Assembly: GCF_002838835.1 (NCBI RefSeq)
Contig: NZ_NHPP01000001.1
Coordinates: 372,001 to 436,000, forward strand
DNA length: 64,000 nt
Source: Siphonobacter sp. SORGH_AS_0500
GTDB lineage: Bacteria > Bacteroidota > Bacteroidia > Cytophagales > Spirosomataceae
Reading direction: 5' to 3'
Made by a program: the position numbers and the translations under genes. Under the pieces are notes generated by a model, which was not told the origin of the DNA, made no database searches, and saw only the letters and a program-made list of their open reading frames with translations. Shown here piece by piece: positions 4,058-6,036 of this stretch. The stretch's first letter is position 1. Each line of letters begins with the position of its first letter.

Positions 4058-4273
4058 TTATACCCGGTCAGACTGGCGACTTTGTTCGCGGTCACGGTTC
4101 TGATCTTGGTTTTGATCCTGACGACGAGTGCTGTCTTCCTGGTGCTGCTGACCTTGGTCCATTCCTTGCTGACGACCACTCTGTTGTCCAGATTGTTGGG
4201 ATTGACGATTTTCTTGATTCTGATCGTTTTGCTGACCTTGTTGACGGCCACCTTGTTGCGATTGATTGTTCAT
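4058..4273 (-). CDS. small glutamine-rich low-complexity protein
   Basis: A 71-residue product starting MNNQSQQGGRQQGQQ and made almost entirely of Gln, Asn, Asp, Arg and Ser; the C-terminal half is charged (DQNRDREQSRQSDRV). The open frame extends upstream to 4360, but the composition changes sharply at the ATG at 4273, which I take as the start. No fold, signal peptide or known domain can be seen; it is probably disordered. A converging hairpin at 4001-4039 would terminate it. Function unknown. Low-complexity frames can be chance, so confidence is moderate. Confidence 0.5.
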   Translation of the reverse strand: MNNQSQQGGRQQGQQNDQNQENRQSQQSGQQSGRQQGMDQGQQHQEDSTRRQDQNQDQNRDREQSRQSDRV

Positions 4274-4492
4274 GATTTTACTAATTTGAGGTTTTGTTGC
4301 ATAGGGACGACTAATCGTCACTTGTGATGATAAAAGACCCATACCACTGTACTTTTTCAATAAATATTATTGCATTTCTTACACAAAAGTCCCCAGTGTT
4401 TCCACGACTCCTCACAACTTTCCAATCTGAAGCTGTTCTTAAAATGATACCAAAGGCTAATAATGGCGGTTATCTCCACCTAAATTTTTAAA

Positions 4493-4526
4493 TAAAAAAG
4501 GTCTGAGATGCTTCTATCTCAGACCT
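4493..4526 (-). terminator. terminator of the partition operon
   Basis: Arms AGGTCTGAGAT (4499-4509) and ATCTCAGACCT (4516-4526) pair perfectly over 11 bp with a 6-base loop. On the minus strand the hairpin is followed by a T-rich run (4493-4499 complement), directly after the RHH gene that ends at 4558. Confidence 0.85.
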
Positions 4527-4557
4527 TCTCCTGATACCTAACTCGTATCATAAATAC

Positions 4558-4812
4558 CTACTTATTCAAGTCTTCTTCGATGAGTTTCAATACATAATCC
4601 CGAACTGTCATTTCATCTTCGGCCACTTTGATCTTCATTTTCTTGAATAGGGCTTTTGGCATATCGACACTAATTCGAGTCAATTCAATTTTAGTAGAGT
4701 GAATATTCTTTACATCTTTCTCCGTTTTATCGATGTCGATAGTGGATGATTTAACGGCGATTTTGGGAGCCAGGCCCAATGTCCCTTTTAAGCCTACCGA
4801 TTCTTTTGCCAT
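4558..4812 (-). CDS. ribbon-helix-helix partition protein (ParG-like)
   Basis: An 84-residue protein with a polar, probably flexible N-terminal tail and a C-terminal ribbon-helix-helix: a beta strand KIELTRISVDMP followed by two helices (ALFKKMKIKVAEDEM, TVRDYVLKLIEEDL). This layout and size match ParG/omega-type centromere-binding proteins that pair with small ParA ATPases. It lies 7 bases after the parA gene in the same direction, as parFG pairs do. By analogy it would bind the repeats upstream of parA, act as the partition adaptor and repress the operon. Family placement comes from fold and context and is inference; a CopG-like repressor is the alternative. Confidence 0.75.
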   Translation of the reverse strand: MAKESVGLKGTLGLAPKIAVKSSTIDIDKTEKDVKNIHSTKIELTRISVDMPKALFKKMKIKVAEDEMTVRDYVLKLIEEDLNK

Positions 4813-4819
4813 ACCTTAA

Positions 4820-5467
4820 TTAATTATTTACAACTTCTACATATTTAATTAACTCATTAAAGAGGTTTACCAGCTCCGTTTTCGCTTTCGGATCTTTGTA
4901 TTCCACTACGCCTACGCCTTTAATGACGGCTTCGCGGTAAGCGGTTCGGGTACCTAAGGTAGTTTGAAAAACTGGAATTGATGAATCTTCCAGCACATCT
5001 CTAACTTCTTTGGCCAAGTTAATGTTTGACTGAAATTGGTTTAGAATGAAGTACGCCGGAATGGGAGCTTCTTTTTCATGAACTGCATCCTGGTAACGCT
5101 CCATGAATTGTTCCGTCGCCCACATATCCAGACCACTCGGTAAGATCGGGATTAATAACACATCGGCCAGAAGGATAATCTTGCTGGTTACTTTATTCAG
5201 TGACGGCGTACCATCAATCACAATGACTTCATAGTCCCGGGCCAGAATCTTTACATTCTTCGACAGTTCAATGCCGTCGGGCTGACCGAATACCGGAATG
5301 GCCGGATTGTCTTCCGAACGCAATCCCGACCAGCGAATCGTACTCTGGTTGGTATCCACGTCAATGATGCAGACTTTATAACCCGCGTGAGCAAAGCAAA
5401 CGGCTAAATTTTGTGATAAGGTGGACTTCCCAACCCCTCCCTTCAAACTAGTAACGGATATAATCAT
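4820..5467 (-). CDS. parA: ParA family ATPase (small, ParF-like)
   Basis: A 215-residue deviant Walker ATPase without an N-terminal HTH, so of the small type Ib class. The Walker A' motif KGGVGKST is at residues 9-16, the switch segment IIDVDTNQST at about 38-47, and Walker B EVIVIDGTPS near 80. Such ATPases coat the nucleoid and position DNA cargo when stimulated by a partner. The partner is the RHH gene 7 bases downstream. Neighbouring genes are chromosomal housekeeping genes rather than replication genes, which is unusual for this plasmid-type pair. AT-rich repeats at 5505-5559 precede it. Confidence 0.9.
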   Translation of the reverse strand: MIISVTSLKGGVGKSTLSQNLAVCFAHAGYKVCIIDVDTNQSTIRWSGLRSEDNPAIPVFGQPDGIELSKNVKILARDYEVIVIDGTPSLNKVTSKIILLADVLLIPILPSGLDMWATEQFMERYQDAVHEKEAPIPAYFILNQFQSNINLAKEVRDVLEDSSIPVFQTTLGTRTAYREAVIKGVGVVEYKDPKAKTELVNLFNELIKYVEVVNN

Positions 5468-5504
5468 AAGCTTAAGATTTCAACAATTATACGGCCTGAA
5501 TTCC

Positions 5505-5559
5505 TTACTCAGATTATTTATTTTTACTTATTTGAGTAAATTTTTATTTACACAAATAA
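5505..5559. promoter_or_regulatory. candidate operator/centromere repeats upstream of parA
   Basis: An AT-rich stretch within 100 bases of the parA start. It holds a TTACTCA box (5505-5511), an imperfect 18-bp palindrome TTTACT-N6-AGTAAA (5523-5540), and a second inverted repeat TTATTT-ACAC-AAATAA (5544-5559). ParG-type proteins are known to bind ACTC-like tetramer boxes separated by AT-rich spacers. The ACTC/GAGT cores here fit that pattern, but the match is inferred by eye. Confidence 0.45.
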
Positions 5560-5611
5560 TGTTTCACCTATAATTAGTTAACTATCAGATACTTGTTCAA
5601 AATAATATTAC

Positions 5612-5654
5612 CACAAAAAAAGCGGTAGCAGGAAAAGAGTCCTGCTACCGCTTT
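5612..5654 (-). terminator. terminator of the acidic orphan gene
   Basis: A 15-bp perfect stem (5619-5633 with 5640-5654, core GCGGTAGCAGG) with a 6-base loop; on the minus strand it runs into a T tract. It lies 28 bases after the stop of the gene at 5683. Confidence 0.88.
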
Positions 5655-5682: not shown

Positions 5683-6036
5683 CTATACCAGAGGAATGTC
5701 ACGTTCGGGGCGAGCTTGATCGCCATCGAGTTCGTCGTCTTCTGGGAAACGCTCTTCCAGATCTTTATATCGACGGTCGTGCGTAGCATTGGCGTCGTTT
5801 AAAAACTGAGCTTCTGGATTAGGATCTTCACCATATACTTTTTCTGATCCTGCCTCTTTTTCAATGATGTCCTCTTCAGGATCATAAGGGCCGCCTACAG
5901 GTTTTTCGATGGGCTGCGTAATAGTGCTGTTCTTTCCTGCTTCTGAAGAGGAGCCCTGGTTATTTACTAAATTCGTATCGGCAGTGGCTGAGCCCAGCGA
6001 CGTACCAGCGTGTTTTTCTTTATGACGGTTAAACAT
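5683..6036 (-). CDS. hypothetical acidic protein
   Basis: A 117-residue hydrophilic protein (MFNRHKEKHAGTS at the start). The N-terminal half is rich in Ser, Thr, Asn and Gly. The C-terminal half is strongly acidic (PYDPEEDIIEKEAG, ERFPEDDELDGDQ). There is no signal peptide, membrane segment or recognisable domain, and much of it is probably disordered. It stands alone with its own terminator. I do not recognise a family; the real-gene call rests on a clean start, the downstream hairpin and ordinary codon use. Confidence 0.6.
   Translation of the reverse strand: MFNRHKEKHAGTSLGSATADTNLVNNQGSSSEAGKNSTITQPIEKPVGGPYDPEEDIIEKEAGSEKVYGEDPNPEAQFLNDANATHDRRYKDLEERFPEDDELDGDQARPERDIPLV

Follow-up and report, generated by a model that had tools for sequence, protein, structure and literature searches.

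The ParA-RHH Pair and Its Terminator

The stretch of DNA considered here (the window) comprises 64,000 nucleotides of a Siphonobacter draft genome of 5.08 Mb in 31 contigs (G000; contig C11, positions 372,001-436,000). Its minus strand carries parA (4820..5467), assigned by sequence and fold matches, which encodes a small ParF-like Walker ATPase of 215 amino acids. The protein begins at the Walker fold, with the HTH extension absent, and contains a deviant Walker A motif, LKGGVGKST, at residues 8-16. All three features that characterize ParF-like small ParA proteins are found in it, namely the deviant Walker A motif, the size class of ~200-230 amino acids (PMC5393062, in the part of the text available), and no N-terminal HTH, and in the family alignment it retains the family-invariant residues, among them K9, K14, D38, and D114. 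Pfam matches are to AAA_31 (3.2e-20) and CbiA (1.8e-16), the PHROG 164 ParA-like partition protein is matched at 1e-44, and the NCBIfam equivalog NF041546 (ParA family partition ATPase) at 177.4 bits over 204 residues, which narrowly misses the curated cut-off of 180. By sequence, the nearest solved relatives in the PDB are TP228 ParA, which is ParF (E 7.9e-23), and ParF (E 2.1e-22). The predicted model (pLDDT 82.6) finds TP228 ParA/ParF in all of its top seven fold matches, with TM values of 0.79-0.85 (5u1g, TM 0.84).

Seven bases after the parA stop lies the gene for the predicted DNA-binding partner, a ParG-like ribbon-helix-helix (RHH) protein of 84 amino acids (4558..4812, minus strand). 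As a single sequence this protein has weak matches (Pfam RHH_10, E 0.057, below the cut-off; a PHROG Arc-like repressor, E 0.0086), and a profile built from eight RHH orthologues matches ParG (1p94) at E 9e-6. The mean pLDDT of its model is 66, with ~80 across most of the last 35 residues and a low-confidence tail; helices are placed at 53-65 and 70-83, and the ribbon is expected at 39-52, the strand being unassigned in the monomer model. Foldseek ranks ParG (1p94) first, with a non-significant E of 0.38, followed by matches that we take to be mostly RHH proteins, such as Arc and MatP. The C-terminal RHH domain and flexible N-terminal tail that characterize ParG-like proteins are both present. 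The tail holds M1, A2, K3, T11, and L12, which are invariant across the eight orthologues; its first arginine does not come before residue 46, and K17 is aligned with an arginine (R17) in two plasmid relatives, from Fibrella and Arundinibacter. The ribbon, ELTRISVDMPK, is identical in the copy found in another Siphonobacter genome, G020.

The two genes share a hairpin terminator (4494..4531, minus strand) recognized by RNA folding: the RNA of 4486-4540 (minus strand) folds at -22.2 kcal/mol (z -6.4, equalled by none of 200 shuffles), and a run of U residues flanks it on the 3' side. The hairpin at 4494-4531 is missing from the results of a consensus terminator scan, an omission that probably reflects the ability of the stem to reach into the T run. 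The corresponding terminator in G062 uses other bases to form an equally strong stem (-28.5 kcal/mol). The pair looks like a separate transcription unit, as another hairpin (5619..5654, minus strand, z -7.1) terminates the next gene upstream, at 5683-6036. An earlier note on this DNA, made from the letters alone, had described a small ParA without HTH, an RHH gene 7 bases downstream, a shared terminator, and a likeness of the pair to ParF/ParG. Each of these points is borne out: the ATPase by its length, its KGGVGKST motif, and ParF as best match by sequence and fold, the partner by the exact spacing and the orthologue profile that matches ParG, and the terminator by the shuffle comparison; the overall likeness is backed by both sequence and fold comparisons.

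Genomic Location and the Empty Site

Six Siphonobacter genomes were compared (G000, G020, G046, G060, G061, and G062), of which at least G060 and G062 are MAGs; in G060 the locus is interrupted by a contig break inside parA. The gene order in G000, G062, and G060 is xylB, xylA, a small Gln-rich protein, the pair, a 117-amino acid protein, and DUF3431. G020 and G061 have the same neighbours with ~1.2 kb less DNA and no pair, and thus display an empty site. From the start of the Gln-rich gene to the stop of the 117-amino acid gene, the distances in the window and in G062 are 1413 and 1395 bp, compared with 224 bp in G020 and 223 bp in G061, and when the empty sites of the latter two are aligned, the flanks are homologous and a cassette remnant is absent. 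The earlier note had proposed a search of relatives for a conserved position, and the outcome is one shared place in three genomes and an empty one in two. G046 has xylA alone among the ten window proteins compared, in the 19 kb examined around xylA.

The spacing relative to the empty-site genomes places the inserted cassette at approximately 4450..5612 (unstranded), with the hairpin at 5619..5654 as its right edge. An integrative element was considered and rejected, as the insert amounts to merely ~1.2 kb between conserved genes and no further genes were found inside it. The G+C content of the whole insert is 39% versus 44% for the window, and the GC3 values of the pair (0.47 and 0.45) are inside the neighbour range of 0.36-0.55. 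Both flanking proteins, the Gln-rich one (4058-4360, minus strand) and the 117-amino acid one (5683-6036, minus strand), are small and hydrophilic, have no Pfam or NCBIfam match above cut-off, and are encoded at the locus in five of the six Siphonobacter genomes, G046 having been viewed only in the 19 kb around xylA.

From its sequence context, the locus is taken to be chromosomal because the empty site of G020 is located on a 3.7-Mb contig, more than half of that 6.4-Mb genome, and because the window carries a tRNA-Leu. A second large replicon in Siphonobacter might carry the locus instead; the 20 sampled 20-kb pieces of the 3.7-Mb contig of G020, in which no tRNA gene was found, count against the chromosomal reading.

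Boxes Upstream of parA

The region upstream of parA (5505..5559, minus strand) is AT-rich and contains GTGT, ACTC, AAGT, and GAGT boxes, some of them degenerate. Within it, TTTACTCAAATAAGTAA (5524..5540, minus strand) contains an inverted pair of tetramers, ACTC and AAGT, at a distance of 8 bp, and is the likely core of an RHH operator or centromere; ACTCaaatAAGT, within 5490-5570, is a candidate RHH site upstream of parA. GTGT precedes ACTC by 16 bp and is in register, and GAGT is off register. The start of TTTACTCAAATAAGTAA is at -73 from parA in the window and at -72 in the other two chromosomal copies. This 17-bp core is identical in 3/3 chromosomal copies, compared with 18-35% for five of the six surrounding 17-bp blocks and 71% for the remaining one. 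It replaces the motif considered first, the palindrome TTTGAGTAAA-n6-TTTACTCAAA, which was dropped, being perfect only in G062, with one mismatch in the window and two in G060. Within the 14-bp dyad, a single base distinguishes the site of the G020 copy from the chromosomal core.

The best 8-mer of the upstream region occurs in five copies, a number equalled by 20 of 100 shuffles and thus within chance. With at most 5/100 shuffles as repetitive taken as the threshold, none of the three chromosomal copies is repetitive, compared with 11 of 23 other copies. The non-random feature of the upstream boxes is their conservation, not their repeat number. Of the AT-rich ACTC/GAGT-containing repeats described in the earlier note, the boxes are present, but their number does not exceed chance. 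Further copies elsewhere in the genome, which the same note had suggested looking for, are reduced to a single extra perfect TACTYAAATRAGTA on contig C27 of G000, missing in G060 and G062. Across the six Siphonobacter genomes, TACTYAAATRAGTA is found at five sites, one upstream of each of the four parA copies and the one on C27, versus nine for the reversed-pattern control; G000 has two, G060 one, and G062 one, so that the many sites of SegAB-type segregation are not seen. Similarly, the 26-bp palindrome with up to 3 mismatches is found at one place in G000, and the 17-mer with up to 2 mismatches at six places in G000 versus eight for the reversed-pattern controls.

In the plasmid relatives, the box words vary (ACTT, ACGT, TCTG, CACA) and stand in an 8-bp register. 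Their mean self-match (n = 23) at lags 8/16/24/32 is 0.396, 0.387, 0.375, and 0.378, with 0.27-0.35 at other lags; control sequence taken from further upstream gives 0.284 at lag 8. For the three chromosomal copies the same lags give 0.336, 0.326, 0.338, and 0.299, with other lags reaching 0.364. The periodicity of chromosomal and plasmid copies differs (Mann-Whitney p 0.004-0.016 across the region lengths used), and 2-4 of the 23 plasmid copies score under the highest chromosomal value; these are 23 of the 25 non-redundant non-chromosomal loci, L125 and L126 being excluded. The comparison suggests an 8-bp-phased array that is weakened in the chromosomal copies, and is suggestive only because the three chromosomal sequences represent one event and are not independent. 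The 8-bp-register arrays with plasmid-specific box words (e.g., at L060, L077, L064, and L046) offer a natural series in which RHH specificity can be compared; at L066 the 8-bp register is not seen upstream of parA.

Plasmid Relatives and the Origin of the Cassette

Close relatives of the ParA (E <= 1e-40) occur in 20 of the 222 genomes of the family, including the three with the chromosomal pair, at 23 places. All 20 places outside this trio are on contigs of 5,703-140,410 bp, and two of them match complete plasmids in size and gene place, one of 98,507 bp from Spirosoma oryzicola and one of 66,926 bp from Runella slithyformis; relatives are found on plasmids of Spirosoma, Runella, and Haliscomenobacter. 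The examined stretches of 19 of the 25 non-redundant non-chromosomal loci contain a Rep gene and those of six do not. The 11 query Rep proteins were drawn from 11 of these 25 loci, and only 8 of the 19 finds are consequently independent, two of these being weak (~25% identity). Pfam independently assigns eight of ten neighbour proteins to Rep3 or RepA_C. The six loci without Rep include the complete plasmid pRUNSL03, for which a partial stretch was examined, and plasmid status is not proven for every small contig.

A maximum-likelihood tree of 24 ParA proteins groups the chromosomal trio as one clade (99/98), sister to the copy of G020 (99/98), which lies on a 140-kb contig, 2.6 kb from a Rep3 gene. 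The tree, with a midpoint root only, covers 21 of the 25 non-chromosomal loci (without L125, L126, L067, and L068); L123 is a second copy of L064 and L127 of L060, L069 and L061 are pieces of G060, and L070 and L071, as weak distant matches, stand outside the comparison. A tblastn search with the 11 Rep proteins, over the 64-kb window and the 10 kb preceding it, yielded no rep gene near the pair, in agreement with the earlier observation that no replication gene is seen around it; the sole Rep3_N match in G000 is on C27.

The earlier note had offered a captured plasmid cassette as one explanation, and this is the strongly supported reading favoured here: an ancestor shared by three Siphonobacter species captured a ParF/ParG-type cassette without rep, on a single occasion, and selection has maintained it since, to which we assign a probability of roughly 0.8. 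The empty site in two congeners, the single clade, and the position of the relatives on small contigs and plasmids, 19 of 25 with Rep, argue for a history in which, as far as sequence comparison goes, a single transfer from plasmid to chromosome probably preceded the split of the three species. Presence and absence alone would be compatible with a pair that is ancestral to the genus and was lost in G020, G061, and G046, but this requires at least two losses versus one gain, the empty sites are free of remnants, and the chromosomal clade is nested among small-contig copies, all of which makes an ancestral pair very improbable.

That the cassette is kept by selection is suggested by the divergence between the copies. 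By the Nei-Gojobori method, pN/pS between window and G062 is 0.022/0.620 for parA and 0.035/0.630 for the RHH gene, and the comparison of window and G060 yields 0.021/0.650 (3' part of parA) and 0.015/0.665 (RHH gene). The neighbours, compared between window and G062, give 0.075/0.636 (DUF3431), 0.066/0.587 (the 117-amino acid gene), and 0.005/0.370 (xylA). Judged by these sequences, both proteins are clearly constrained, more than DUF3431 and the 117-amino acid protein and less than xylA, with the pN/pS ratio being merely indicative because synonymous change is near saturation. A recent, functionless, and decaying leftover of plasmid integration would fit with the upstream array being weakened relative to the plasmid copies (p 0.004-0.016, one event). 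It would not fit with frames that are intact in two complete copies and in both G060 fragments, with pN/pS of about 0.02-0.06, with a terminator stem that has been rebuilt from other bases in G062, or with the invariant box core, and a decaying remnant is thus the least probable of all the readings considered.

Possible Roles of the Chromosomal Cassette

Partition genes are usually held to be useful solely to their own replicon, and two-gene modules of this kind are normally plasmid-borne. It is conceivable, as a best guess held at clearly less than even odds, that the captured cassette no longer acts as a segregation motor for a replicon and instead interferes with related incoming plasmids. 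A more specific version, in which it is a domesticated, clade-wide plasmid-exclusion device, reduced to one operator-like box pair and operating without DNA cutting, is more doubtful. By inference from the family, the operon would be repressed by RHH dimers bound to its inverted ACTC/AAGT boxes, ParA would bind ATP and the nucleoid, and the N-terminal tail of the RHH protein would stimulate ParA. The chromosomal ParA and RHH proteins could then act on the array of an incoming plasmid, with the chromosomal site as a competitor. These steps are modeled on TP228, for which the available portions of PMC7308502 and PMC5393062 describe RHH dimers that coat the boxes and repress the operon, a ParA that binds ATP and the nucleoid, and an RHH tail that inserts into the interface of the ParA dimer and promotes hydrolysis.

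Interference is ranked first because the chromosomal and G020 copies share the same RHH ribbon, from which it is predicted that the chromosomal RHH protein should recognize such plasmids, because their dyads are nearly identical, and because a precedent exists in SGI1, a chromosome-integrating element with parS-like sites that destabilizes a plasmid (PMC10954446, part of the text). A second place of the ParA family (E <= 1e-40) is absent in all three genomes with the chromosomal pair, in agreement with interference; related plasmids would be expected to be missing from three drafts anyway, since only 20 of 222 genomes have such a ParA. In the same portion of the SGI1 study, ~15 extra parS copies alone caused an incompatibility much weaker than that of the whole SGI1 (PMC10954446). 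A single chromosomal site should therefore compete poorly, and a protein-based disturbance is likelier than competition between sites. For pSM19035, at least four contiguous repeats are required for efficient ATPase activation according to the text available for PMC9499535, and on this ground, where only a single good box pair is present, the locus may serve as an operon that represses itself and not as a working centromere.

Next after plasmid interference, and unlikely, ranks the possibility that the cassette positions its own chromosomal region, with ParA moving or tethering the RHH-box complex on the nucleoid in the manner of SegAB. Chromosomal segregation by a ParA and an RHH protein does exist in Sulfolobales (SegAB; PMC12284271, from an excerpt), and here both proteins and the site are conserved. 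In addition, the cassette lies ~277 kb from a plus-to-minus switch in GC skew at about 100 kb on C11 (a single 10-kb bin ahead of the switch is likewise negative), and the empty site of G020, at 2.58 Mb, is ~0.2-0.4 Mb from the skew switch there. The terminus assignment is, however, not unique, as the ends of C2 and C13 are also plus-left and minus-right; sampling covered one end only of C19, C20, C21, C23, and C24, and 20 × 20 kb of the 3.7 Mb of C1 in G020. SegB, in the excerpt cited, has tens of sites (PMC12284271), compared with one in G060, one in G062, and two in G000, the second of which is a dyad that is not conserved. The chromosomal copies show little 8-bp periodicity, which sits poorly with the at least four repeats of pSM19035 (PMC9499535, in part), and a canonical Soj/ParB locus is already present in the genome. 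Segregation of the bulk chromosome is disfavoured because the site would be on the terminus side and the genome has Soj/ParB. The earlier note had also raised a system that positions something other than a replicon; for a non-DNA cargo this is less supported, since the partner is an RHH protein and the box site beside the genes is conserved.

Stabilization in trans of a plasmid or second replicon through boxes carried on it is highly unlikely. In its favour, a perfect TACTTAAATAAGTA dyad, with GAGT close by, is located on C27 of G000 between Rep3 iterons and ParAB genes. This dyad is absent from the same stretch of the Rep3 locus in G060, G062, G020, G046, and G061, a lack of conservation at orthologous loci for which C27 was rejected as a target; moreover, the reversed-pattern controls give nine sites in six genomes versus five real ones, and the C27 replicon owns a ParAB.

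The C27 locus, at ~190.8-197.0 kb of the contig (L116, 4826-10921), encodes a Rep3 initiator of 485 amino acids, ParB, and an HTH-bearing ParA, with iterons like TATCACAAATTGTGATA, and it is situated at a negative-to-positive GC-skew switch of the 336-kb contig, next to surE-, diacylglycerol kinase-, and cydB-like genes (named by sequence reading alone). A Rep of this type is present in 6/6 Siphonobacter genomes, with 79-93% identity in the other five. The locus may represent a genus-wide chromid, or a chromosome with a plasmid-type origin; the ends of C29 and C30 are also minus-left and plus-right. In G061 (C192; L143, 5809-7193), the conserved Rep3 gene appears to be split into two frames, through a frameshift or an assembly error.

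Comparison with Known Systems

The closest characterized system is parFGH of TP228, with which the cassette shares a small ParA without HTH (215 versus 206 amino acids) followed by a small RHH protein and, as far as the available text of PMC7308502 describes it, an AT-rich upstream region with tetramer boxes. Unlike parFGH, the cassette is chromosomal and rep-less and has few in-register boxes, with one conserved pair. ParG also has an ATPase-stimulating Arg19, whereas the N-terminal tail of the window RHH protein has no arginine and a lysine at 17. Two plasmids, unnamed8 of Spirosoma oryzicola and pRUNSL03 of Runella slithyformis, have ParA proteins that are 74.9% and 66.7% identical; among the best 5000 plasmid records, these are the only ones above 60% ParA identity. 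They have the same gene order with an RHH partner downstream, but unlike the window cassette both are complete circular plasmids, and pRUNSL03 is typed as conjugative.

Similar to the cassette, SegAB of Sulfolobales is a chromosome-encoded ParA-type ATPase with an RHH protein and palindromic sites upstream; it differs in being archaeal and in having tens of sites along the chromosome, compared with essentially one here (PMC12284271, both points from an excerpt). SGI1, in its interference with IncC plasmids, shows that chromosome-integrated DNA with partition sites can destabilize a plasmid. In contrast to the cassette, which has a whole ParA-RHH pair, it has only parS-like sites and Sci and borrows the ParAB of the plasmid, according to the part of PMC10954446 available.

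Among the matches listed in a search of the open-licence literature (titles and abstract starts), none concerned the capture of a ParF/ParG-type cassette by the chromosome of a bacterium. Both proteins are of a known kind and unremarkable in themselves, and what is new is a rep-less, stand-alone cassette fixed at one chromosomal place. A complete ParF/ParG-like cassette has persisted there while three species diverged, its binding core invariant and its proteins altered at very few residues, which allows a test of whether partition systems are recruited by chromosomes against plasmids or for the positioning of a chromosomal region. Its plasmid relatives, with their diverse 8-bp-phased centromere-like arrays, provide the material for a comparison of RHH recognition.
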